A DNA stretch of 64,000 nt from Flammula alnicola (lineage: Eukaryota > Basidiomycota > Agaricomycetes > Agaricales > Strophariaceae), in the NCBI GenBank assembly GCA_015499995.1, contig JADNRV010000122.1, forward strand, positions 62,001 to 126,000. Reading direction: 5' to 3'. The position numbers and the translations under genes were made by a program. Below the pieces are notes generated by a model, which was given only the letters and a program-made list of their open reading frames with translations, was not told the DNA's origin and searched no databases. Shown here piece by piece: positions 43,891 to 58,937 of the stretch (the stretch's first letter is position 1; the number at the start of each line of letters is the position of its first letter).

Positions 43891-43914
43891 AAAAAAAAAA
43901 AAAGAAAAAAAAAG
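43891..43914 (-). terminator. Poly-T tract: original Pol III terminator of the tRNA-Asn gene, left behind
   Basis: On the minus strand, directly after the tRNA 3' part at 43919-43950, a T9-C-T13 tract follows a TAATC spacer. That is the expected position and form of a Pol III terminator. The tRNA 5' half that it once served now lies 15 kb away at 58.9 kb. The role is inferred from position. Confidence 0.6.
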
Positions 43915-43918
43915 ATTA

Positions 43919-43950
43919 CTGCCCCAATGAGGCTCGAACTCATGACCTTC
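43919..43950 (-). repeat. att core 1 (left): original 3' part of tRNA-Asn
   Basis: 32 bp matching the variable loop, T arm, acceptor 3' strand and discriminator of the tRNA-Asn gene at 58847-58937, with two mismatches in the T loop (43933, 43935). Similarity stops sharply at 43950, where the element's own left end begins. Confidence 0.85.
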
Positions 43951-43996
43951 AACTGTTGGGTGTGTGCGAGCCTCAACTGTTGGGTGTGTGCGAGCC
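43951..43996. repeat. 24-bp tandem duplication at the left element end
   Basis: The word starting AACTGTTGGGTGTGTGCGAG, next to the att core, occurs twice in copy 1 and once in copy 2 (51441 onward). It could be a recombinase arm-type site or a slippage product. Confidence 0.55.
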
Positions 43997-44269
43997 TTGA
44001 ACCTAGTCAAGTCTTCGCGGAGCGATACAAGTTCTCGCGAAGCGATGCTTGGGCGCGAACATCGCTCTGGGACATCGATTAGCGCTGGAGAACATGGCAG
44101 TTCCGACTTCTTATGGTTAGGGTTGGCCCGTAAAGTTTTTCCCGAAGTGAGCACGTTCATGCTTATCATGACGACGCTATTGTCGAAATTGTGCGTAACA
44201 CCGTTGCTACTTCCACCACACAGAATCATGCATCATGCGCTAACACGATTGTTCAAAACACATGCAAAT

Positions 44270-44415
44270 AGTTTGCTTGCGCTCGCGAGCAAACTGTTTG
44301 TACATGTTGACATCACAGTTCATGGCCCGGGTTGCCGGGGCCCGACCTCATGTTTTGCCACAAAATCACGTGTGGCAAAAGTCAATGTCGGGCTCCGGCA
44401 TCACTCGGCATTGAC
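44270..44415. repeat. Cluster of perfect inverted repeats in the left subterminal region, copy 1
   Basis: Arms 44270-44277/44288-44295 (AGTTTGCT/AGCAAACT); nested palindrome 44340-44346/44387-44393 (GCCCGAC/GTCGGGC) enclosing 44353-44362/44371-44380 (TTTTGCCACA/TGTGGCAAAA) with a central CACGTG; and 44381-44387/44409-44415 (GTCAATG/CATTGAC). All lie in the ~250 bp before gene A. A TATA box (TATAAAG, 44481-44487) follows. Candidate binding sites for recombinase or regulator. Confidence 0.7.
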
Positions 44416-44520
44416 TGTTCCTCATGCAACGATGGGTGTGGCTCGAACAACAATGTGCGACCTGTTGCAATGCGCTTGGATATAAAGCTGAGTTACTTTT
44501 CTTTTCTCTTTTGCCCCCAT

Positions 44521-45594
44521 ATGACATCCATCACAGCCGCATTCGAAAAACTCTCCTCCATCGAACCCCTCGATGCCGGCGCCTCTCCTCGCAAGGTGCA
44601 AGCCTTTAGGGCCAAAGCACAGAAATACCTGCGCCTCTCGCAAGACATCGTCACCCATCTCACCGGCATCATAACCGCCTCTGGACTCGATCCCGACGCC
44701 GACGATTCAGAGTCGGAGCCTCCGCCACCTCCCCCAAATGGCAAACTGGTGCGTCGTAGCTTCTTTTCTTTCTTCTCTTTGTACTTATGCTGCCAATAGA
44801 CCATGGCCATAAAGCGCATACGACAGCTCGAAGGCTCGCTTACAATCAGTCCTCTCACCCCTCAAGAGTTTGCTGGGCGTCTGTATGAGACCGGAAAGGG
44901 ATCCAAGCAAGCCGAAGAACAAATCTCGTTCGCCTCGCTTTTGCGCGGCTACGCGCCGGCAGCCAGTCTGGACGACTGGTACGATATCCTCGACATGCAG
45001 CCCGCTGACCTGAACTGGCACATACAAAGCGTTCATACCGAGTCGATCGACGACATCAGTCAGCGGCTTTTGGAACGTGAAAAGGCTCTAGCAATGATCC
45101 AGGGCGGCACTGCCCTTCGAGGACTCGCCAACAGCATCATCACCTGCATACACGCTGTCAGGTTCGCTCAGGAATGGAAGGATCTTTCGACGGCACGTGG
45201 AGGAAAGAAGAAAAAGGTTGAGTATCGGAAAGCAGCGTTCAAGGTTAGGTACCCCAATGTGTCTGTGGACGACTACGAATCGGAACTCAAGGCCTTTACC
45301 AACCGACACGAGAAAGTCGTCACCGCTCGCAATACCCTCTTTCGGATCTATTCCAAGTTTCACATTGCCGTGCTTTTGGATCCCTTGTGGACGCCCATAG
45401 CTTCATACGACCATGGCACCATTGGCCGTAGCCCGAGCTTCGCCCTCACCCTCGATCGCTTTATGCATTTCTCAACGCCGCAAGATCCCTACTTTCAGAA
45501 AAATCTCACGACATTTAAGCAGCTCATCGAGATCATGTTCAGTGAGGAGACGGTTAAATATGTAGACGAGTTTCTAGACGAGTTTCCCTTCTAA
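44521..45594 (+). CDS. Element gene A, unknown protein (340 aa), copy 1
   Basis: Two exons, 44521-44748 and 44800-45594, with a clean 51-nt intron and a TATA box ~35 bp upstream. The N-terminus has KVQAFRAKAQKYLRLSQD, then an acidic-proline linker (DDSESEPPPPPP). The large exon is mostly helical, with ASLLRGYAPAASLDDWYD, LAMIQGGTALRGLANSI, YRKAAFKVRYP, LLDPLWTPIASYDHG and a C-terminal KYVDEFLDEFPF. No known fold was recognised; it is not transposase-like. The copy 2 protein differs at many residues yet keeps frame and intron, so the gene is under selection. A role in the element's life cycle, such as a cofactor of recombination, is only a guess. Confidence 0.7.
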
Positions 45595-45699
45595 TTTTAA
45601 TTATCCTCACAATGTCACTTCTTATGATGAATTTGGATTCTAATTGTCCTCGCAATAACGCGGTGAAAACCCTGAATAAACAAACAGTCGCAAATGTTT

Positions 45700-46338
45700 T
45701 CAAACGGCATTCTCAAGGCTTGAGCCCCAACTACCAGCCTGCTGCTGGCCCCAAGCCTGCCCTTGTGCCGTCCATCCTCCGTCGTAATGGATGCGCTGTG
45801 GCTGCTGGTCCCACTGCTGGGGATATGCAGGCTCTTGAGGTGTCCAATTGTTTGTCGGGACTGCTGGTGCATTCTGCTGGCCATAGTCGGCAGGCGTCGG
45901 AAGCGTCTCAAGATCGCGTGACTGATTGTGCTGGGGATATGCAGGCTCTTGAGGTGTCCAATTGTTTGTCGGGACTGCTGGTGCGTTCTGCTGGCCATAG
46001 TCGGCAGGCGTCGGAGGCATCTCAAGATCGCGTGACTGATTGTATGCGCGGGCTAAAGGTGCGTCAGTTATCAGTATATGCGCATATATTCATTACCTTG
46101 CTCAATCTGCAGCTCTAGCTCAAGAGCCCTGAGCTTGGCAGTAGCAATATCTTTTTCAGCTAGAGTTGCCCGCAGAATCCTGCGAGTTATATTATCGAGC
46201 ATCGCTAGACTTTCGGGCGCAAAATCAGCAGGCTCAGGCGCTAGGAATTTTTGGTAAGCCAAAGAGAGAAAGAAAAAAAAGCAACTAACGAATATCCTCA
46301 TTGTCAGAATCTCGGGCTTTTCTCTTGCCACCCTTCAT
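45700..46338 (-). CDS. Element gene B, small repeat protein, copy 1
   Basis: Three exons on the minus strand, 46338-46290, 46240-46097 and 46052-45700, 181 aa. A basic start (MKGGKRKARDSDNED) leads to a helical region (AMLDNITRRILRATLAEKD, then KLRALELELQIEQ) that could form a coiled coil. Two 38-aa Pro/Gln-rich repeats (SRDLE, PTPADYGQQNAPAVPTNNW, TPQEPAYPQ) come next, then a Gly/Trp/Gln-rich tail ending SLENAV. No family was recognised. The gene lies between gene A and the recombinase in opposite orientation, diverging from the recombinase start 120 bp away, so the two may share a promoter. Confidence 0.6.
45815..46042. repeat. 114-bp tandem repeat inside gene B (two units in copy 1, one in copy 2)
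   Basis: Units 45815-45928 and 45929-46042 are nearly identical and in frame, encoding the 38-aa repeat of gene B. Copy 2 has a single unit, so this accounts for the length difference between the two B proteins. Confidence 0.8.
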
Positions 46339-46457
46339 ATTGCGAGGGATATCAGGATATACAGTGAGTTTTGACGCGTCCTTGCATTTCCTCTCAAAAC
46401 AAACCCAAATACCTTCTGTCTGCAGGCATCACATGATATTATCCTTCCCCTCCCTCC

Positions 46458-49400
46458 ATGAACAACTACCCCAACTCGTCACTATCAAATACCCTCCGCA
46501 AGGCACAGCGTGAGGGTGGATCAGCAGCCAAAGGGCAATCAGATGTGGTTCCTGCAGGCCCGTCTGGACAGGCTCGCCAGGCGCCGCATGTGAACCTCAC
46601 CAACTCTGCGGCCGTCCAAAAGGCTCGACAAAATCTTCAGGCTACCACAGGCGCTGCCACACCCATCGAGATCGCGCTAGCCAAAGAGCGGTATGAGAAA
46701 TGGTCAAAAACCGTGACCAGTCAAGAGTCGCCTATCACCAAAGCCCATCGAGACAGAATTGCCGCTCGATGGGCAGTCTTTATCTGCATCTTCTGTCCTG
46801 AACTCTCCCAGGAGTCCTACTGGCATTTCGACATTGTCAAGGGCAATGCCCTCCTGTTTCTTCCATTTCTAGTATGCTTTTTACCTTTCTATGTGACAAC
46901 CATGCTCATATATGCACTAGATTGACACGACACCTCCAAGACGAGGGCACAAGGCGCTCAAGGGCGCCACTGTCGGCAAGTGGCTGGAGCTTCTCGTCTA
47001 TTGCATTGTGACATACACACGCGATCCCGAAACTGGCAACAAGCTCGGGATGGTCCTCCTGACTCAACACGGCTACTTTACCAAACTTGAGGATCAAGTT
47101 GTCGCTCGTAAGCTCCTTTTCTAGCTCTTCTTGTTGTGTTCTAACTAGGTTCAAGTTTCGCAGGAGCGTGGACTCGAACGAACATTTGATCCCAAACACT
47201 ATTATGGGCGCCCAGAGCTTCAACGCATTTTCCAGACTATGCTCGCAAAAACACAATTCGAGGGCACACCTCGAGCAGTCGTGATCCAAGGGGTCTGTAG
47301 ATTACTTATGACATTCTATTGTACCTGTCGGCCATCCACCCTTGGTCCAACCCACAAGAAGTGGATGGAACTTCGCTATGTATGTTGAGATTTTTTTTAT
47401 CTCATTTTTTCTTGCTCATCAGATCAGTTTATAAAACTCGGCAACATCCGCGTGTTCCATGTCGGTGACATGAATTACCGTATACAAATTAGTCTTGAAG
47501 AATTCAAGGTTTGTGCTCGATGCGCTTTATCTTTTCTGCCTTATTAATGCTTCGTTTAGGGTACTATTGGAGCATCCCAAGTGGAAACACAGATATTCAC
47601 TTTTGACAATGTCCAATACGCTCACAACACACTCTTCGACCCTGTGCTCTGGTTCCTCGCCTGGCTGTTCTACAGACGCGCTTTCGTCGGAAATTATGCG
47701 GTGAGCAACTCTTAATGCATATGCTGTTTCTGGGCTCATACATCTCACAGAGCATGTCCGACCTTCTTGCGGATCCCGTTGGTGAACTCGTGATACTTGC
47801 GGACAAGATGGGCGAACCTCTGTAAGCATCTCTGGTAGAACCCATACCCATCTGATTTGCTTAATGCCCATCTAGGTTTCTTGCTGTTGGACCAGGCGGT
47901 ACCAGCTTTACTGCAGAAGCTGCATTTGCCAAGGCCACTTCGGACACACTTGCCACCTGGGCCAAGGCTTCTGGCTTGCCCGCCGTAGGTGTTTATGCAA
48001 TACGACGTGAATCCACAAATTTAGTAAGTGCGACTCACCTCTGTTCTTATAACACCGCTGATGTTGGCTCACAGTACTCGTTGCTCATGGGCCTTCAGTT
48101 TGCAAAGGACATTTGCAACCACCACTCTATCAACGACGGTGTCCTTCGTCGACACTACTCACGCAATACCAACAACATGGCTGTTGTCGGACTTCGCACT
48201 GGAGAAATCAGGGGCACGAAAGAGTCGAGGCCAGGTGAAGTGCTAGAGGTAAAAATGACACCTATCATTTGATTTATGCTGATACTAGACTCTTTCAGTC
48301 GAATTTTGAACGGCATGCTTATGCTTCAGCTGCGGTCGAGAGTCTGGTTCGTATGCAGAATCAGACCCCATTGGACCTCGCCAATGCAAAAAAAGCTCTA
48401 TTCAACCAAGTAGAGGTGGGTAATTTGACGATCCCTGGATGCTCCATCTTACCAATTTAAACAGCAAATGCCAGAAATGGTTGCCCTCCAGGAGAACCTC
48501 GACCATCTGATCGATGCCTACCTGTCATGTTTCACATCTGTGGCTCGCTCTTACCAGCGAGAGCAGGCTCAAATCAACCGCATACTAAAGCGCGCCATTG
48601 GTGAGACTGTACCCAAGGACAACAGCATGCCTGTCGAGTTCTTGCCAGGTAAATCAGTTGAGGCCAAGATGGTGCGTACAGACTCTAGTTTTGTATGACC
48701 TGGTCTCACAAACACTGTCAGATGCACCTCCGTGTGACCAAGGCCTTTGAGGATATTAATAATGCGAGGAAACGGCTTCGACGCAAGGCTACAGCTGAAG
48801 AAAAATACAAATCCACCGTCGATATGGGTCACAGTGCCCTCACCGGCACTGTTGAACAGCGCCAAAAGGCCATTGAAGAAGCACAACAGGTGCCAGTACA
48901 GCTCCTCGAAGCCATACGAGCTGCCCGTAGTAAGTTTTATTACTGTTATCATTTCCGTAGCTAACTCTCTTGCAGACTCTTCGGATGCACCCACCACTGA
49001 CCAAGATTGGCGCGATAAACTTTTGGATTTGGCCAAACCCCCTCCAGTTCAAGATCCTGTGCTCGCTGACCCTTTCACTAACCCCAAGCAATGGCAGCAA
49101 CAAATAGAATTGATGTCTGCGCAACACCGAATTGAAGACGCCGACGAATTCTGTGAGGTTCCAGAGGCCGTCAACCTCTTCATTGGAACTTGCCGCAAGG
49201 AGGCAGGTCGGAAAGAAGGAAATTCTCTCGATGCAGCCACCAAGGCTCCACCACCAAGCAAAGATCCTGACTGGATGACAAGTGCGTCGCAAGACGTGGA
49301 TGAATCTCAGGAGACAGATGTCTTCAAGTTGCCTCGACAAGATGTTGGTCGAGCATTCCTTGACTACCTGCTAACTCCAATCATGAATCAGGAAGCCTTT

Positions 49401-50116
49401 GAGAAGACAAAAGTTTGTTATTCTTTTTTTCCCTTGATGTGCGCTCACATTTTTCCCCCAAGGTCACTCTTGAAGAAATTGCTCACGGAATTCCTGCCGG
49501 CTATCGATGCCCTTTCTGCACAAGGTACACCCATCGCGAGGTGAAGGTGTCCGTCTTCCCTACAATGTACAAGATGCGACGGCATTTGTAGGTGTTGAAA
49601 TTCTTTCACATGTGTTTTTTATCCTGACTTTTTTTTTTTGTCATAGTGCGCAATCACATTCAGCATGGAAAGACCTCGAGCTGGACATGGTTCGAGAGGG
49701 CTCCGAAGAATTCCACTGCCCTTGTGGACAGTTTGATGGCGAGTCTGTCGACCTTGTTCGCACTCATGCTGTTTCCGATCGGTGCCCAAGGCGGGTCGAG
49801 CATCGTGCTATGGAGGTGTCACACAAGGAGGTGATTGTCGAGTTTCAATCTGAGCACCCAGGAACACAGAGGGCGAAAAAGGCGAGGGTGGCTCAAGTTG
49901 CAAAGTCGGTGTTTACTCACGAGGTATTTATTCTTTTCACATTTCATCTTCCAGGCTTACACACTCTGCTAGTGGCCTGAGGGCAAACGATGCCAAGTGA
50001 TAGGATTTATCCAGGATTTCATTCGGAATGGCATGGCAAAGTATCCAATCAGTCAAGACCCTGAAGTTAGCGATGTAGGCGAAGAAGAGTGGATCGATGA
50101 GGATGAAGTAGCATAA
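46458..50116 (+). CDS. Tyrosine recombinase (DUF3435/crypton-like) with C-terminal zinc fingers, copy 1
   Basis: About 14 exons from the ATG at 46458 to TAA at 50114-50116; exon 1 ends 46871 and exon 2 starts 46921. After a basic N-terminus and a KERYEKWSKTVTSQESP segment comes a helical domain (HKALKGATVGKWLELLVY). The catalytic domain follows: CRLLMTFYCTCRPSTLGP (candidate Arg I), GVYAIRRES (the Y/HxxR position), ICNHHSINDGVL and RRHYSRN with the candidate nucleophile Tyr. This is the R..HxxR..H..Y order of tyrosine recombinases and resembles DUF3435 (YxLRR ... H ... HY). The C-terminus has GYRCPFCTRYTHREVKV and FHCPCGQFDG...H finger-like motifs and an acidic tail. All exons but one join cleanly; the donor near 47.1 kb is ambiguous. 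The enzyme would integrate and excise the element at the tRNA-derived cores. Confidence 0.75.
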
Positions 50117-50132
50117 TAGAATGTTTGACTTT

Positions 50133-50203
50133 GCGATTGCGCAGTGATTGTATTTGACTTCGCGATTGCGCGGCGAAAAGAATTGTTGATTTTGCGATTG
50201 CGC
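50133..50203. repeat. Three GCGATTGCGC direct repeats after the recombinase gene, copy 1
   Basis: Exact copies at 50133, 50162 and 50194, spaced ~30 bp, beginning 17 bp after the recombinase stop. Each is itself nearly palindromic. Possible protein-binding iterons or 3' processing signals. Confidence 0.65.
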
Positions 50204-50390
50204 AGCAAGTGAATCCTGTTACCTGTTAAACTGTTACACACCGACATCGAAAGGTTATGAGTTCCAACGACGAACAGACACCATTAGCATCAAGAGAGTA
50301 TTCTATTCCAGAAAAGCACTCTAACATTTTGGAATTGTATGAACGTCTGTCACCCTCTCTGGCATATTTACCGGCCTGACATTATCTAAT

Positions 50391-50409
50391 AGCTGTGAAA
50401 ATCACAGCT
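50391..50409. repeat. Perfect hairpin AGCTGTGA-aaa-TCACAGCT, copy 1
   Basis: Eight-bp arms with a 3-nt loop, conserved in copy 2 at 57843-57861. Lies between the recombinase and the tyrosinase fragment; possible terminator or binding site. Confidence 0.55.
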
Positions 50410-50657
50410 TTCCTTGCTCTCCTTCCACTGCAAAAAGTGCACCTGGCGGGTAATTTAAAGACATAGCGAAGACGACAACCTCGAGTGACTAGAGAGAAGC
50501 CAGAGATCCATCTATCTGATTTACATTCGTCAGTCCCAATTACCTGCAAACACGGAGACGTGAAGATAACGAACCTTCGGTATGCACCACTGCAAATTAT
50601 CCGTCAAATATTTGACAAAAAATTCAGGGCTCAAGGAGCGCCGCTGTGAATGTTGAA

Positions 50658-50935
50658 TTATTGCGTGGCCAGGTTGAACGAACCCTCGTTCGTCTGCATC
50701 GTCGCCTTGCCTGCTGCAGTTAGCACAATTCTCGCAGTCTTCGTCACCAGCTCAAAACGGGCCCCGACATATTCCTGGTGCAGAGGCCATCGTGCTGGAT
50801 CTTCGAGGACTCCACCGAGGAAGAGGAAGACCGCGAAACTGCATCCGAGTTCGTATTTCTTGACTTGTATCTGGGCGGTCCAATCCCATGGTCCTTCGTC
50901 AGGAGGCATAGAACCATCTGGAGGAAGAGGCTAAG
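50658..50935 (-). pseudogene. Captured tyrosinase C-terminal fragment, copy 1
   Basis: The minus strand reads PLPPDGSMPPDEGPWDWTAQ, then IQVKKYELGCSFAVFLFLGG, EDPARWPLHQEYVGARF and ends NLATQ-stop at 50658. In basidiomycete tyrosinases the C-terminal beta domain has the same pattern (W-x-A-x-I-x-V-K-K-Y-E-L, F-L-G, E-D-P, Y-V-G-A-H). The copper-binding part is absent and a stop lies just upstream, so this is a fragment captured from a host gene. The frame is kept in both copies. Confidence 0.6.
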
Positions 50936-51408
50936 AGCAAGGGACAGCCGGGAAAGAGGAGCAGTCATGGAATATACAGACTGTCCGACACCGGGATTTA
51001 AGGCAGATCAAAGAGCGAGCATCCTGTCGACGTTAAAATGATGCAAGTAAAAGATAGGATCGAAAGCTGAGGCCGATAAGTAACATTGTTACACATCGCA
51101 AGTGATACTAAACGACTAACCAGCAACACCCGTTGATGGAGTCCTTTCAAGCGGAGTTTGAATTGTCAAGTGCCCTTGAGCTAATTTGTATCACCACGCT
51201 ATGCAGGCCAACCAACTTTGCATAAAAATACTCGGAATGCATTTAGTATACCTTTATGATGAATTCTACCAAAAATCTTGAATAGCAGAGGGGTATGTAA
51301 AATCCACTTTTTTAAAGTCCATACGCACATCACTGCGCTGATGGCTTTGGTAAACAAGGGTCAACAAAAGCAAAAGTCAATCGAACACCGACCAATGTCA
51401 AAATATAC

Positions 51409-51440
51409 CTGCCCCAATGAGGATTGAACTCATGACCTTC
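51409..51440 (-). repeat. att core 2 (internal junction between the two elements)
   Basis: 32 bp identical to the 3' part of the intact tRNA-Asn gene at 58847-58878. Flanked on the left by the right end of copy 1 and on the right by the left end of copy 2, so it has the sequence expected of the attP site of a circular form. Confidence 0.85.
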
Positions 51441-51993
51441 AACTGTTGGGTGTGTGCGAGCCTTGAACCTAGTCAAGTCTTCGCGGAGCGATACAAGTTC
51501 TCGCGAAGCGATGCTTGGGCGCGAACATCGCTCTGGGACATCGATTAGCGCTGGAGAACATGGCAGTTCCGACTTCTTATGGTTAGGGTTGGCCCGTAAA
51601 GTTTTTCCCGAAGTGAGCACGTTCATGCTTATCATGACGACGCTATTGTCGAAATTGTGCGTAACACCGTTGCTACTTCCACCACACAGAATCATGCATC
51701 ATGCGCTAACACGATTGTTCAAAACACATGCAAATAGTTTGCTTGCGCTCGCGAGCAAACTGTTTGTACATGTTGACATCACGGTTCATGGCCCGGGTTG
51801 CCGGGGCCCGACCTCATGTTTTGCCACAAAATCACGTGTGGCAAAAGTCAATGTCGGGCTCCGGCATCACTCGGCATTGACTGTTCCTCTACTCTCATGC
51901 AACGATGGGTGTGGCTCGAACAACAATGTGCGACCTGATGCAATGCGCTTGGATATAAAGCTGAGTTACTTTTCTTTTCTCTTTTGCCCCCAT

Positions 51994-53074
51994 ATGACAT
52001 CCATCACAGCCGCATTCGAAAAACTCTCCTCCATCGAACCCCTCGATGCCGATGCCTCTCCCAGCAAGGTGCAGGCCTTCAAGTCCAAAGCCCAGAAATA
52101 CCTGCGTCTCTCTCGAGACGTCGTCACCCATCTCACCGGCGTCATGACAGCCTCTGGACTCGATCCCGATGACGCCGACAATTCAGAGTCGGAACCTCCA
52201 ACACCTCCCCCACAAAAGCTCAATGGCAAACTGGTACGTCGCCTCCTTTCTTCTTCTCTTGTACTTAAGCTGCCAATAGACCATGGCTATAAAGCGCATA
52301 CGACAGCTCGAAGGGTCACTCACACTCACCCCTCTCACCCCTCGAGAGTTTGCTGGGCGTCTGTACGAGACCGGAAAGGGATCGAAGCAGGCCGAGGAAC
52401 AAATCTCGTTTGCCTCGCTTTTGCGCGGCTACACACCGGCAGCCAGTCTGGATGACTGGTACGACATCCTCAACATGACGCCCGACGATCTGAACTGGCA
52501 CGCACAAAGCATTCGTACCGAGTCAATCGACGACCTCGGTCAGCGACTTTTGGAACGCGAAAAGGCTTTGGCGATGATCCAGGGTGGCACCGCCCTTCGA
52601 GGACTCGCCAACAGCATCGTCATCTGCATACACGCCATCAAGTTTGCCCAGGAATGGAGGGAACTTTCGACAGCGCGCGGAGGAAAGAATAAAAAGGTCG
52701 AGTATCGCAAAGCAGCATTCAACGTTAGGTACCCCGATGTGTCCGCGGACGACTACAAATCGGAACTCGACGCCTTTACAAATCGACACGAAAAAGTCAT
52801 CACAGCTCGCAATACCCTCCTTCGTATGTTTTCTAAATTTCATGTTGCTGTTCTTCTGGATCCCTTGTGGACACCCATCGCTTCCTACGACCATGGTACC
52901 ATCGGCCGTAGCCCGAGCTTCGCCCTCACCCTCGATCGCTTTATGCATTTCTCGACGCCGCAAGATCCCTACTTTCAGAAAAATCTCACGACATTCAAGC
53001 AGCTCATCGAGATCATGTTCAGCGAGGAGACGGTTAAATATGTAGACGAGTTTCTAGACGAGTTTCCCTTCTAA
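51994..53074 (+). CDS. Element gene A, unknown protein (344 aa), copy 2
   Basis: Exons 51994-52233 and 52280-53074; TATA box at 51954-51960. Compared with copy 1 it has dozens of substitutions, including clustered changes at ASPSKVQAFKSKAQ, LNMTPDDLNWHAQS and NTLLRMFSKFHV, and a four-residue longer linker. The last ~65 codons and the 3' flank are almost identical to copy 1. The frame, intron position and most residues are kept. Function unknown, as for copy 1. Confidence 0.7.
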
Positions 53075-53179
53075 TTTTAATTATCCTCACAATGTCAATT
53101 CTTATGATGAATTTGGATTCTAATTGTCCTCGCAATAACGCGGTGAAAACCCTGAATAAACAAACAGTCGCAAATGTTT

Positions 53180-53704
53180 TCAAACGGCATTCTCAAGGCT
53201 TGAGCCCCAACTACCAGCCTGCTGCTGGCCCCAAGCCTGCCCTTGTGCTGTCCATCCTCCGTCGTAATGGATGCGCTGCGGCTGCTGGTCCCACTGCTGG
53301 GGATATGCAGGCTCTTGAGGTGTCCAATTGTTTGTCGGGACTGCTGGTGCATTCTGCTGGCCATAGTCGGCAGGCGTCGGAAGCGTCTCAAGATCGCGTG
53401 ACTGATTGTATGCGCGGGCTAAAGGTGCGTCAGTTATCAGTATATGCGCATATATTCATTACCTTGCTCAATCTGCAGCTCTAGCTCAAGAGCCCTGAGC
53501 TTGGCAGTAGCAATATCTTTTTCAGCTAGAGTTGCCCGCAGAATCCTGCGAGTTATATTATCGAGCATCGCTAGACTTTTGGGCGCAAAATCAGCAGGCT
53601 CAGGCGCTAGGAATTTTTGGTAAGCCAAAGAGAGAAAGAAAAAAAAGCAACTAACGAATATCCTCATTGTCAGAATCTCGGGCTTTTCTCTTGCCACCCT
53701 TCAT
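53180..53704 (-). CDS. Element gene B, small repeat protein, copy 2
   Basis: Exons 53704-53656, 53606-53463 and 53418-53180, 143 aa. Same as copy 1 except for a single 38-aa repeat and a few substitutions (for example FAPKS for FAPES). It diverges from the recombinase start 120 bp away. Confidence 0.6.
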
Positions 53705-53823
53705 ATTGCGAGGGATATCAGGATATACAGTGAGTTTTGACGCGTCCTTGCATTTCCTCTCAAAACAAACCCAAATACCTTCTGTCTGCAGGCATCACAT
53801 GATATTATCCTTCCCCTCCCTCC

Positions 53824-56800
53824 ATGAACAACTACCCCAACTCGTCACTATCAAATACCCTCCGCAAGGCACAGCGTGAGGGTGGATCAGCAGCCAAAGG
53901 GCAATCAGATGTGGTTCCTGCAGGCCCGTCTGGACAGGCTCGCCAGGCGCCGCATGTGAACCTCACCAACTCTGCGGCCGTCCAAAAGGCTCGACAAAAT
54001 CTTCAGGCTACCACAGGCGCTGCCACACCCATCGAGATCGCGCTAGCCAAAGAGCGGTATGAGAAATGGTCAAAAACCGTGACCAGTCAAGAGTCGCCTA
54101 TCACCAAAGCCCATCGAGACAGAATTGCCGCTCGATGGGCAGTCTTTATCTGCATCTTCTGTCCTGAACTCTCCCAGGAGTCCTACTGGCATTTCGACAT
54201 TGTCAAGGGCAATGCCCTCCTGTTTCTTCCATTTCTAGTATGCTTTTTACCTTTCTATGTGACAACCATGCTCATATATGCACTAGATTGACACGACACC
54301 TCCAAGACGAGGGCACAAGGCGCTCAAGGGCGCCACTGTCAGCAAGTGGCTGGAGCTTCTCGTCTATTGCATTGTGACATACACACGCGATCCCGAAACT
54401 GGCAACAAGCTCGGGATGGTCCTCCTGACTCAACACGGCTACTTTACCAAACTTGAGGATCAAGTTGTCGCTCGTAAGCTCCTTTTCTAGCTCTTCTTGT
54501 TGTGTTCTAACTAGGTTCAAGTTTCGCAGGAGCGTGGACTCGAACGAACATTTGATCCCAAACACTATTATGGGCGCCCAGAGCTTCAACGCATTTTCCA
54601 GACTATGCTCGCAAAAACACAATTCGAGGGCACACCTCGAGCAGTCGTGATCCAAGGGGTCTGTAGATTACTTATGACATTCTATTGTACCTGTCGGCCA
54701 TCCACCCTTGGTCCAACCCACAAGAAGTGGATGGAACTTCGCTATGTATGTTGAGATTTTTTTTATCTCATTTTTTCTTGCTCATCAGATCAGTTTATAA
54801 AACTCGGCAACATCCGCGTGTTCCATGTCGGTGACATGAATTACCGTATACAAATTAGTCTTGAAGAATTCAAGGTTTGTGCTCGATGCGCTTTATCTTT
54901 TCTGCCTTATTAATGCTTCGTTTAGGGTACTATTGGAGCATCCCAAGTGGAAACACAGATATTCACTTTTGACAATGTCCAATACGCTCACAACACACTC
55001 TTCGACCCTGTGCTCTGGTTCCTCGCCTGGCTGTTCTACAGACGCGCTTTCGTCGGAAATTATGCGGTGAGCAACTCTTAATGCATATGCTGTTTCTGGG
55101 CTCATACATCTCACAGAGCATGTCCGACCTTCTTGCGGATCCCGTTGGTGAACTCGTGATACTTGCGGACAAGATGGGCGAACCTCTGTAAGCATCTCTG
55201 GTAGAACCCATACCCATCTGATTTGCTTAATGCCCATCTAGGTTTCTTGCTGTTGGACCAGGCGGTACCAGCTTTACTGCAGAAGCTGCATTTGCCAAGG
55301 CCACTTCGGACACACTTGCCACCTGGGCCAAGGCTTCTGGCTTGCCCGCCGTAGGTGTTTATGCAATACGACGTGAATCCACAAATTTAGTAAGTGCGAC
55401 TCACCTCTGTTCTTATAACACCGCTGATGTTGGCTCACAGTACTCGTTGCTCATGGGCCTTCAGTTTGCAAAGGACATTTGCAACCACCACTCTATCAAC
55501 GACGGTGTCCTTCGTCGACACTACTCACGCAATACCAACAACATGGCTGTTGTCGGACTTCGCACTGGAGAAATCAGGGGCACGAAAGAGTCGAGGCCAG
55601 GTGAAGTGCTAGAGGTAAAAATGACACCTATCATTTGATTTATGCTGATACTAGACTCTTTCAGTCGAATTTTGAACGGCATGCTTATGCTTCAGCTGCG
55701 GTCGAGAGTCTGGTTCGTATGCAGAATCAGACCCCATTGGACCTCGCCAATGCAAAAAAAGCTCTATTCAACCAAGTAGAGGTGGGTAATTTGACGATCC
55801 CTGGATGCTCCATCTTACCAATTTAAACAGCAAATGCCAGAAATGGTTGCCCTCCAGGAGAACCTCGACCATCTGATCGATGCCTACCTGTCATGTTTCA
55901 CATCTGTGGCTCGCTCTTACCAGCGAGAGCAGGCTCAAATCAACCGCATACTAAAGCGCGCCATTGGCGAGACTGTACCCAAGGACAACAGCATGCCTGT
56001 CGAGTTCTTGCCAGGTAAATCAGTTGAGGCCAAGATGGTGTGTACAGACTCTAGTTTTGTATGGCCTGGTCTCACAAACACTGTCAGATGCACCTCCGTG
56101 TGACCAAGGCCTTTGAGGATATTAACAATGCGAGGAAACGGCTTCGACGCAAGGCTACAGCTGAAGAAAAATACAAATCCACCGTCGATATGGGTCACAG
56201 TGCCCTCACTGGCACTGTTGAACAGCGCCAAAAGGCCATCGAAGAAGCACAACAGGTGCCAGTACAGCTCCTCGAAGCCATACGAGCTGCCCGTAGTAAG
56301 TTTCATTACTGTTATCATTTCCGTAGCTAACTCTCTAGCAGACTCTTCGGATGCACCCACCACTGACCAAGATTGGCGCAATAAACTTTTGGATTTGGCT
56401 AAACCCCCTCCAGTTCAAGATCCTGTGCTCGCTGACCCTTTCACTAACCCCAAGCAATGGCAGCAACAAATAGAATTAATGTCTGCGCAACACCGAATTG
56501 AAGACGCCGACGAATTCTGTGAGGTTCCAGAGGCTGTCAACCTCTTCATTGGAACTTGCCGCAAGGAGGCAGGTCGGAAAGGAGGAAATTCTCTCGATGC
56601 AGCCACCAAGGCTCCACCACCAAGCAAAGATCCTGACTGGATGACAAGTGCGTCGCAAGACGTGGATGAATCTCAGGAGACAGACGTCTTCAAGTTGCCT
56701 CGACAAGATGTTGGTCGAGCATTCCTTGACTACCTGCTAACTCCAATCATGAATCAGGAAGCCTTTGAGAGGACAAAAGTTTGTTATCCTTTTTTTCCCT

Positions 56801-57481
56801 TGATGTGCGCTCACATTTTTCCCCCAAGGTCACTCCTGAAGAAATTGCTCACGGAATGCCTGCCGGCTATCGATGCCCTTTCTGCACAAGGTACACCCAT
56901 CGCGAGGTGAAGGTGTCCGTCTTCCCTACAATGTACAAGATGCGACGGCATTTGTAGGTGTTGAAATTCTTTCACATGTGTTTTTTATCCTGACTTTTTT
57001 TTTTGTCATAGTGCGCAATCACATTCAGCATGGAAAGACCTCGAGCTGGACATGGTTCGAGAGGGCTCCGAAGAATTCCACTGCCCTTGTGGACAGTTTG
57101 ATGGCGAGTCTGTCGACCTTGTTCGCACTCATGCTGTTTCCGATCGGTGCCCAAGGCGGGTCGAGCATCGTGCTATGGAGGTGTCACACAAGGAGGTGAT
57201 TGTCGAGTTTCAATCTGAGCACCCAGGAACACAGAGGGCGAAAAAGGCGAGGGTGGCTCAAGTTGCAAAGTCGGTGTTTACTCACGAGGTATTTATTCTT
57301 TTCACATTTCATCTTCCAGGCTTACACACTCTGCTAGTGGCCTGAGGGCAAACGATGCCAAGTGATAGGATTTATCCAGGATTTCATTCGGAATGGCATG
57401 GCAAAGTATCCAATCAGTCAAGACCCTGAAGTTAGCGATGTAGGCGAAGAAGAGTGGATCGATGAGGATGAAGTAGCATAA
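53824..57481 (+). CDS. Tyrosine recombinase (DUF3435/crypton-like), copy 2
   Basis: Same exon layout as copy 1, ending with TAA at 57479-57481. All catalytic candidates (CRPSTLGP, YAIRRES, NHHSIND, RRHYSRN) and the C-terminal Cys/His motifs are kept. The few differences include ATVSKW for ATVGKW, one D to N (DWRNKL), and one E to G (GRKGGN). The frame is open throughout, so both copies could make protein. Confidence 0.75.
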
Positions 57482-57497
57482 TAGAATGTTTGACTTT

Positions 57498-57655
57498 GCG
57501 ATTGCGCAGTGATTGTATTTGACTTCGCGATTGCGCGGCGAAAAGAATTGTTGATTTTGCGATTGCGCAGCAAGTGAATCCTGTTACCTGAACTGTTACA
57601 CACCGACATCGAAAGGTTAGCGCGGCGAAAAGAATTGTTGATTTTGCGATTGCGC
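57498..57655. repeat. Four GCGATTGCGC repeats and an ~88-bp tandem duplication, copy 2
   Basis: Repeats at 57498, 57527, 57559 and 57646. The fourth arises from the tandem duplication of the segment from GCGCGGCGAAAAG to GAAAGGTTA, absent in copy 1. Confidence 0.7.
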
Positions 57656-58109
57656 AGCAAGTGAATCCTGTTACCTGTTAAACTGTTACACACCGACATC
57701 GAAAGGTTATGAGTTCCAACGTCGAACAGACACCATTAGCATCAAGAGAGTATTCTATTCCAGAAAAGCACTCTAACATTTTGGAATTGTATGAACGTCT
57801 GTCACCCTCTCTGGCATATTTACCGGCCTGACATTATCTAATAGCTGTGAAAATCACAGCTTTCCTTGCTCTCCTTCCACTGCAAAAAGTGCACCTGGCG
57901 GGTAATTTAAAGGCATAGCGAAGACGACAACCTCGAGCGACTAGAGAGAAGCCAGAGATCCATCTATCTGATTTACATTCGTCAGTCCCAATTACCTGCA
58001 AACACGGAGACGTGAAGATAACGAACCTTCGGTATGCACCACTGCAAATTATCCGTCAAATATTTGACAAAAAATTCAGGGCTCAAGGAGCGCTGCTGTG
58101 AATGTTGAA

Positions 58110-58387
58110 TTATTGCGTGGCCAGGTTGAACGAACCCTCGTTCGTCTGCATCGTCGCCTTGCCTGCTGCAGTGAGCACAATTCTCGCAGTCTTCGTCACC
58201 AGCTCAAAACAGGCCCCGACATATTCCTGGTGCAGAGGCCATCGTGCTGGATCTTCGAGGACTCCACCGAGGAAGAGGAAGACCGCGAAACTGCATCCGA
58301 GTTCGTATTTCTTGACTTGTATCTGGGCGGTCCAATCCCATGGTCCTTCGTCAGGAGGCATAGAACCATCTGGAGGAAGAGGCTAAG
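58110..58387 (-). pseudogene. Captured tyrosinase C-terminal fragment, copy 2
   Basis: Same as the fragment at 50658-50935 with one residue changed (VGAC for VGAR). Truncated, no copper-binding region. Confidence 0.6.
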
Positions 58388-58846
58388 AGCAAGGGACAGC
58401 CGGGAAAGAGGAGCAGTCATGGAATATACAGACTGTCCGACACCGGGATTTAAGGCAGATCAAAGAGCGAGCATCCTGTCGACGTTAAAATGATGCAAGT
58501 AAAAGATAGGATCGAAAGCTGAGGCCGATAAGTAACAACATCGCAAGTGATACTAAACGACTAACCAGCGACACCGTCCTTTCAAGCGGAGTTTGAATTG
58601 TCAAGTGCCCTTGAGCTAATTTGTATCACCACGCTATGCAGGCCAACCAACTTTGCATAAAAATACTCGGAATGCATTTAGTATACCTTTATGATGAATT
58701 CTACCAAAAATCTTGAATAGCAGAGGGGTATGTAAAATCCACTTTTTTAAAGTCCATACGCACATCACTGCGCTGATGGCTTCGGTAAACAAGGGCCAAC
58801 AAAAGCACCAAAAGTCAATCGAACACCGACCAATGTCAAAATATAC

Positions 58847-58878
58847 CTGCCCCAATGAGGATTGAACTCATGACCTTC
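58847..58878 (-). repeat. att core 3 (right), part of the intact tRNA-Asn gene
   Basis: Identical to core 2 over 32 bp and different from core 1 at two T-loop bases. Beyond 58878 the sequence is the tRNA intron and 5' half, absent from the other cores. Confidence 0.85.
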
Positions 58879-58937
58879 CGATGACGTAATTAGATAACGT
58901 AACAGTCGGACGCTGTAACCAACTCAGCCATGGGGCA
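58847..58937 (-). tRNA. tRNA-Asn (anticodon GTT) with a 17-nt intron
   Basis: Minus strand, 5' end at 58937. The 7-bp acceptor stem TGCCCCA/TGGGGCA is perfect and is followed by discriminator G. The D arm is GCTG/CAGC, the anticodon stem is TCCGA/TCGGA with loop CTGTTA-A, and the variable loop is AGGTC. The T arm is ATGAG-TTCAATC-CTCAT. The intron (CGTTATCTAATTACGTC) sits one base 3' of the anticodon, the canonical position. A TTTT run lies 6 nt past the 3' end, inside the element's right end. Bases 58847-58878 are att core 3, so the gene's 3' third was supplied by the element. Confidence 0.9.

Follow-up and report, generated by a model that had tools for sequence, protein, structure and literature searches.

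Can a mobile element enter the 3′ end of a nuclear tRNA gene, as elements of bacteria and archaea do, and leave a complete gene behind? A hallmark of the islands of bacteria and archaea is that they insert into tRNA 3′ ends by means of a tyrosine recombinase and repair the gene as they do so. The prokaryotic elements that integrate at tRNA genes (genomic islands, integrative and conjugative elements, prophages, and archaeal plasmids) target the tRNA 3′ end, bring a replacement 3′ end, displace the old copy, and can accrete in tandem. The question is raised here by a 64,000-nucleotide stretch of the genome of the basidiomycete Flammula alnicola, referred to as the window, which covers bases 62001–126000 of contig JADNRV010000122.1 (our C27; 160,497 bases) in the assembly GCA_015499995.1 (74.4 Mb, 861 contigs). 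Within it, three 32-bp cores derived from the 3′ end of a tRNA-Asn(GUU) flank two tandem 7.4-kb elements, E1 and E2. An initial annotation of the window had recognized the logic of tRNA 3′-end integration, with gene reconstitution and tandem accretion, and the three cores, the rebuilt gene, and the displaced 3′ end described below bear this out. Positions are those of the window unless a contig is named.

Two tandem elements at a tRNA-Asn gene

E1 spans 43951–51408 and E2 spans 51441–58846, both on the plus strand. Of the 7329 ungapped columns in an alignment of the two, each taken together with the core that follows it, 7187 are identical (98.1%), and a further 270 columns contain gaps, which confirms the direct tandem of two ~7.4-kb copies. 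The cores lie on the minus strand at 43919–43950 (left), 51409–51440 (middle), and 58847–58878 (right). Between 43000 and 60000, ARAGORN (standard code, introns allowed) found a sole complete tRNA, a tRNA-Asn(gtt) at 58937–58847 on the minus strand, which runs through the right core. With the bacterial code, the program labels this gene ‘tRNA-???’, and the call used here is that made with the standard code and introns. The gene (58847–58937) is intact, has a 17-nt intron, and scores 56.4 bits in the Rfam tRNA model (cut-off 29). The right core thus completes a tRNA-Asn gene, as had been proposed.

The middle and right cores are identical over all 32 bp, whereas the left core has two mismatches in 32 positions and reads CTC instead of ATT in the T-loop. 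The left core, with the host T-loop variant GTTCGAG, is the displaced original 3′ end of the tRNA. Downstream of it lies the displaced original poly-T terminator for RNA polymerase III (Pol III; 43891–43913, minus strand, an A-run on the plus strand), which is also present on the second haplotype (contig C377). The right core carries the variant GTTCAAT and is the element-supplied 3′ end of the rebuilt tRNA, followed immediately by an element-supplied TTTT (58838–58841, minus strand). The middle core forms the E1–E2 junction and has the sequence that a circular form would be expected to carry (attP-like). The combination of CTC and poly-T at the left core with ATT at the middle and right cores is exactly what is predicted for one crossover to the right of the variant, between a host CTC copy and an element ATT copy.

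The elements begin with a 22-nt left arm, AACTGTTGGGTGTGTGCGAGCC, which occurs twice in E1 (43951–43972 and 43975–43996, together 43951–43996) and once in E2 (51441–51462), in each case on the plus strand. A core joined to the arm, with up to two mismatches, was matched three times in 74.4 Mb and its reversed control was not matched at all, so the pairing of core and arm is not due to chance. The arm alone, with up to three mismatches allowed, occurs six times in the genome, always exactly (reversed control, 0). Four of the six occurrences directly follow a tRNA core, and the other two are repeats of the arm. This answers, at least in part, the check suggested in the initial annotation of whether the tRNA core and the element belong together: every left arm lies at a tRNA core or is a repeat next to one. 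No inverted repeats linking the element ends were found.

A proposed tRNA-repairing mode of integration

We consider it likely that the locus carries a low-copy DNA mobile element that is site-specific for tRNA gene 3′ ends and uses tRNA-repairing integration by a tyrosine recombinase. In the proposed mechanism, a circular form carrying one core would recombine with the part of a tRNA gene that matches it. From the variant positions in the cores, the exchange at the Asn site would be placed within the 14–15 bp that separate the T-loop from the variable loop (58864–58878). The 5′ part of the tRNA would be joined to the element core, which provides a complete 3′ end together with a short stretch of T residues to serve as terminator, and the old 3′ end and its terminator would be pushed to the far end of the element. 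The rebuilt gene would again be a target, to which a second element could add in tandem. The enzyme would most likely be the 984-amino-acid product of the element's gene B, a tyrosine recombinase distantly like the DUF3435 captains of Starships, and the product of gene A may assist.

The middle core shows the joint expected of the circle; a tandem gives the same sequence. The circle, the enzyme chemistry, the route to the tandem, and present activity are what we infer from the arrangement of the locus. At tRNA-Asn, the evidence supports the tRNA-repair logic well, and a tRNA-Lys site provides independent support for the target specificity.

The same locus on a probable second haplotype

Four pairs of stretches (the left and right flanks of the locus, C434/C335, and C251/C479) are 0.6% to 5.4% apart, from which we infer that the assembly contains two partly separated haplotypes. 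Contigs C377 and C473 each correspond to one side of the locus; the left flank differs from that of C27 at 50 of 8061 sites and the right flank at 240 of 4416. The divergence between the haplotypes is 0.6% to the left of the element and jumps to 5.4% on its right. C377/C473 had been considered as a second insertion site, which was dropped in view of the flank homology, as it marks the same locus, probably on the second haplotype. Within the element, C377 differs from E1 at 19 of 5760 sites (4 of 4842 from 44.9 kb on) and C473 at 4 of 1658. This divergence is below that of the flanks and fits recent movement or gene conversion.

C377 and C473 show the same left and right core pattern as C27. 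The left junction on C377 reads CCTTG followed by the arm, and the exchange on that haplotype is therefore narrowed to ~14 bp. On C473, the right end of the element joins the tRNA directly, with tRNA exons equal to those of C27 and a diverged intron and upstream flank. The tRNA-Asn scores 56.4 bits in Rfam on both haplotypes. Identical exons despite the diverged intron and flank suggest that the rebuilt tRNA has been kept by selection.

An empty and a filled site at tRNA-Lys

The element matched the genome 62 times in a DNA search, in many cases through short shared repeats. A protein search with P0001 (BDZ97DRAFT_1848994), a model of gene B that skips part of one exon and has a different end, gave matches on C27 (two copies), C377, C473, C479, C62, and C113. 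On C479, the left arm directly follows an exact 30-nt tRNA-Lys 3′ end. This 30-nt core is found, with 0–2 mismatches, at nine other places, all of which are called as tRNA-Lys genes. One of the nine, on C251, has a flank in common with C479 (94.1% identity over 1548 aligned columns). The homology extends exactly to the end of the 30-nt core, beyond which C479 continues into the arm and C251 into the rest of an intact tRNA-Lys, scored at 56.2 bits in Rfam. C251 (empty) and C479 (filled) are thus a probable haplotype pair at tRNA-Lys, and the left boundary between them is exact. In the stretch 207640–208060 of C479 (L065), the 5′ exon of tRNA-Lys is present in part at two places 0.3 kb apart, and at both it gives way to diverged DNA, with no 3′ exon.

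C113 carries a tRNA-Asn (54.8 bits) with the T-loop variant of the element and with a terminator that is also similar; a piece of gene B lies 0.2 kb from it. We read this as an old, decayed insertion.

Two conserved genes in a mosaic tandem

Each element encodes two spliced genes on the plus strand that are free of internal stops. Gene A has two exons and lies at 44521–45594 in E1 (340 amino acids; the same protein as P0004, BDZ97DRAFT_1925008) and at 51994–53074 in E2 (344 amino acids). Gene B, at 46458–50116 in E1 and 53824–57481 in E2, has 15 exons, GT..AG introns, and a product of 984 amino acids, a probable tyrosine recombinase. The initial annotation had assigned a spliced tyrosine recombinase to each element; the intact 15-exon gene is indeed present in both, and its identity as a recombinase is probable.

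E1 and E2 are not one copy assembled twice, as they are set apart by large indels and, in gene A, by differences at 104 coding sites. Their synonymous divergence (dS) is 0.32 in gene A and 0.012 in gene B. The gene A region (44421–45450 versus 51894–52900) is 7–15% diverged per 250 bases, and most of the remainder is nearly identical. The element of the second haplotype is E1-like from ~44.9 kb onward and E2-like near its left end. Taken with the two dS values, this pattern indicates that the tandem is a mosaic of two element variants and not a plain duplication.

Between E1 and E2, the ratio of nonsynonymous to synonymous divergence (dN/dS) is 0.22 in gene B, from only 14 changes, and 0.17 in gene A. 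Against the C479 copy, it is 0.29–0.32 in gene B and 0.14–0.21 in gene A (for E2, 0.29 and 0.14), with a frameshift near the end of the C479 gene B kept in the comparison, which would raise dN. Judged from these ratios, genes A and B are under purifying selection.

Enzyme identity and alternative explanations

Several observations weigh against the proposed element and its enzyme. With respect to the sites, the search for an empty site suggested by the initial annotation succeeded at tRNA-Lys (C251/C479), where the right side is not clean, and no such allele turned up for tRNA-Asn. The C479 element is without its right part, and its right side is scrambled: the homology to C251 resumes 9.56 kb on, inside the tRNA intron and ~20 bp past the point at which it broke off on the left, and a second tRNA-Lys 5′ exon is present at a distance of 0.3 kb. 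The stretches C479:198000–207000 and 207640–208060 yielded no tRNA (207001–207639 lies outside them). The rebuilding of the tRNA is therefore present at tRNA-Asn on both haplotypes and not seen at the C479 tRNA-Lys with its scrambled right end. C62 holds an element relic with no tRNA within its 9-kb stretch. On the second haplotype, a contig end breaks the element, and ARAGORN calls the C473 tRNA-Asn a tRNA-Ala(cgc) with a different intron reading. We take the latter as a misplaced intron, because the C473 exons are identical to those of C27.

With respect to the enzyme, the core segments of protein B matched only DUF3435 (PF11917) in Pfam, with E-values of 0.021, 0.0056, 0.0081, 0.019, and 0.020. 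These matches, from five of seven core segments, are all sub-threshold (best 16.1 bits; family cut-off 25.8) and are not independent, as they cover the same ~110-residue stretch around R259, with three near-identical copies among them. The similarity is confined to the first half of the protein B core. No Pfam family was matched by the segment with the candidate residues Y413, R416, and Y450 or by the decayed segment from C62, and full-length protein B matched only RH_dom in Pfam, below the cut-off, and not DUF3435. The candidate catalytic residues (P0001 numbering) are R259, K302, Y413-x-x-R416, H438/H439, and Y450. The residues published for the captain of Sanctuary are R260, K308, Y424, R427, and Y458 (PMC12506042), and those of protein B resemble this set in order, in a pairing made by eye and not by computed alignment. 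Their spacing turned up in 584 of 2000 shuffles and is not significant alone. AlphaFold, with an alignment of three sequences, gave protein B a mean predicted local distance difference test (pLDDT) score of 28.8.

Wider searches gave few relatives. No above-threshold match to protein B was found in Pfam, NCBIfam, or PDB sequences, the last of which gave two weak, unrelated-looking matches, and gene B had no above-threshold similarity to PHROGs phage proteins. Scans of IMG/VR showed no relatives. Two homologue searches that depend on shared 5-residue words (7999 and 2271 scored candidates) returned three protein B homologues, all from Flammula alnicola. Protein A has a relative, P0006, of 323 amino acids (59% identity over 78% of the query) on a 17,714-base contig (JGI, ENA). 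Another recombinase-like frame in the genome, L047 (C46:338069–338383), scores 28.5 bits for DUF3435 and has an HSFRRGG motif; hhalign detected no relation between it and protein B, with an effective number of sequences (Neff) of 1.2 in the alignment.

These results leave some room for the same tRNA-targeted integration by another enzyme, either a recombinase of the host or of another element, or a gene B product of an unrelated fold. The missing above-threshold matches, the segment around the candidate nucleophile with no family, and the low pLDDT count in its favor. Against it, core-directed integration with neither inverted repeats nor duplication of a short target is what tyrosine recombinases typically produce, DUF3435 is the sole family matched by the core segments, and gene B is intact and constrained in both E1 and E2. 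We therefore regard a different enzyme as unlikely. On the integration logic together with the weak DUF3435 and residue signals, the gene B product is probably a tyrosine recombinase.

Unequal crossing-over that duplicated a segment with the tRNA and neighboring host genes in tandem, without the help of a mobile element, would also yield two direct copies with a piece of tRNA between them, and the mosaic resembles the outcome of gene conversion. The related copy at another tRNA type, with an empty counterpart that matches to the exact end of the core (C479/C251), runs counter to this explanation, as does the gene A dS of 0.32, which is too distant for a simple recent duplication (gene B dS, 0.012). 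A simple duplication was rejected on these two grounds, and we consider the explanation very improbable. A retroelement or DDE transposon with a preference for tRNA genes, as in yeasts, Dictyostelium, and fish, was likewise rejected and has a negligible probability: such elements often target tRNA genes (PMC13269885, PMC8869645, PMC5633606), but the scanned proteins, a subset of the element frames, include no reverse transcriptase or transposase domain, there are no inverted repeats, and the sequence at the junction, 32 bp long, belongs to the tRNA itself and is not an adjoining short target duplication.

Comparison with known mobile elements

The F. alnicola element shares with the prokaryotic tRNA-integrating elements the tRNA 3′ target, the replacement 3′ end, the displaced copy, and the tandem. 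It differs from them in its nuclear fungal genome, its spliced genes, the T run that it supplies after the tRNA, and a gene B with no above-threshold similarity to PHROGs phage proteins or Pfam integrases.

Among eukaryotic elements, Starships are likewise fungal, and the element resembles them in its probable DUF3435-like recombinase and in that no reverse transcriptase domain was found. Starships are described from Pezizomycotina and measure 15–700 kb (PMC12134995), and some of their families target a Pol III gene, the 5S ribosomal DNA (rDNA); the Aspergillus fumigatus Starship insertions into 5S fragment the gene, with direct repeats of 2–12 bp in 19 of 20 and inverted repeats in 18 of 20 (PMC12153272). 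In contrast, the F. alnicola element is 7.4 kb long, has 32-bp cores and no inverted repeats, and rebuilds its target gene. Its gene B is not the first gene, as gene A precedes it, and its DUF3435 score is below the cut-off. The element thus lies outside the Starship definitions tested, namely a captain as the first gene, a length of at least ~15 kb with cargo, and short direct repeats, usually with terminal inverted repeats.

CryptonF elements are likewise fungal DNA elements flanked by terminal direct repeats, and they encode a tyrosine recombinase, as gene B probably does. The published description of CryptonF gives mostly 6-bp terminal direct repeats and a GCR1_C domain protein, and contains no mention of tRNA (PMC3212892). 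The F. alnicola element has 32-bp cores, and none of its scanned proteins matched GCR1_C, which places it outside the tested CryptonF definitions (GCR1_C domain, ~6-bp terminal repeats). Unlike DIRS/Ngaro elements, which pair a reverse transcriptase with a tyrosine recombinase, it has no reverse transcriptase domain in the proteins scanned.

Two groups of viral elements offer partial parallels. The tyrosine recombinase-bearing polinton-like viruses of cryptophytes are likewise eukaryotic, with a tyrosine recombinase and probable circularization; a scan of 1 kb around their insertions revealed no tRNA genes (PMC12220804). In crustacean endogenous nimaviruses, as probably in the element, a eukaryotic tyrosine recombinase is tied to a fixed repeated target. 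They are, however, large viral genomes, and their tyrosine recombinases are reported in association with telomeres or 28S rDNA, not with tRNA genes (PMC10871703).

Other features of the elements

The sole recognized passenger in the 7.4-kb element is a fragment of a host tyrosinase gene. Near the right end of E2 (57982–58382, minus strand), it matches Tyrosinase_C (PF18132) in two overlapping frames (E-values, 2.9e-11 and 4.4e-6), and the E1 copy of this C-terminal domain fragment (50530–50930, minus strand) was placed by correspondence. A longer, gene-like, tyrosinase-like relative of the E2 fragment lies on C357, with frames read by eye. A possible small spliced gene C of ~140 amino acids at 53180–53700 (minus strand) is a tentative model built from stop-to-stop frames only, and has no Pfam match.

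A DNA search showed that 58585–58806 (no strand assigned) is a repeat in common with ~192-bp units on C201, C15, and C545. Those units adjoin long helicase-like frames, and the repeat is perhaps a Helitron end. A ~100-bp hairpin-like repeat lies at 44314–44419, with a counterpart in E2 and pieces at many other places in the genome; its weak Rfam score for mir-3913 (E-value, 0.62) was taken as chance.

Conclusions

The answer that this locus gives points, with reasonable though lesser confidence than the integration mechanism itself, to a new eukaryotic tyrosine-recombinase lineage that integrates like an island into nuclear tRNA genes, rebuilds the T-loop promoter half and the Pol III terminator, changes between tRNA types (Asn, Lys), and accretes in tandem. 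Among the titles and abstract openings listed by searches of the open-licence literature, none described a eukaryotic tyrosine-recombinase element by which a tRNA gene is rebuilt. The novelty claimed in the initial annotation is not contradicted there and stays provisional. If this reading is true, the harmless-insertion strategy would also work where the target has an internal promoter, an intron, and the need for a terminator, and the element would offer a natural tRNA-specific integrase for fungal genetics.

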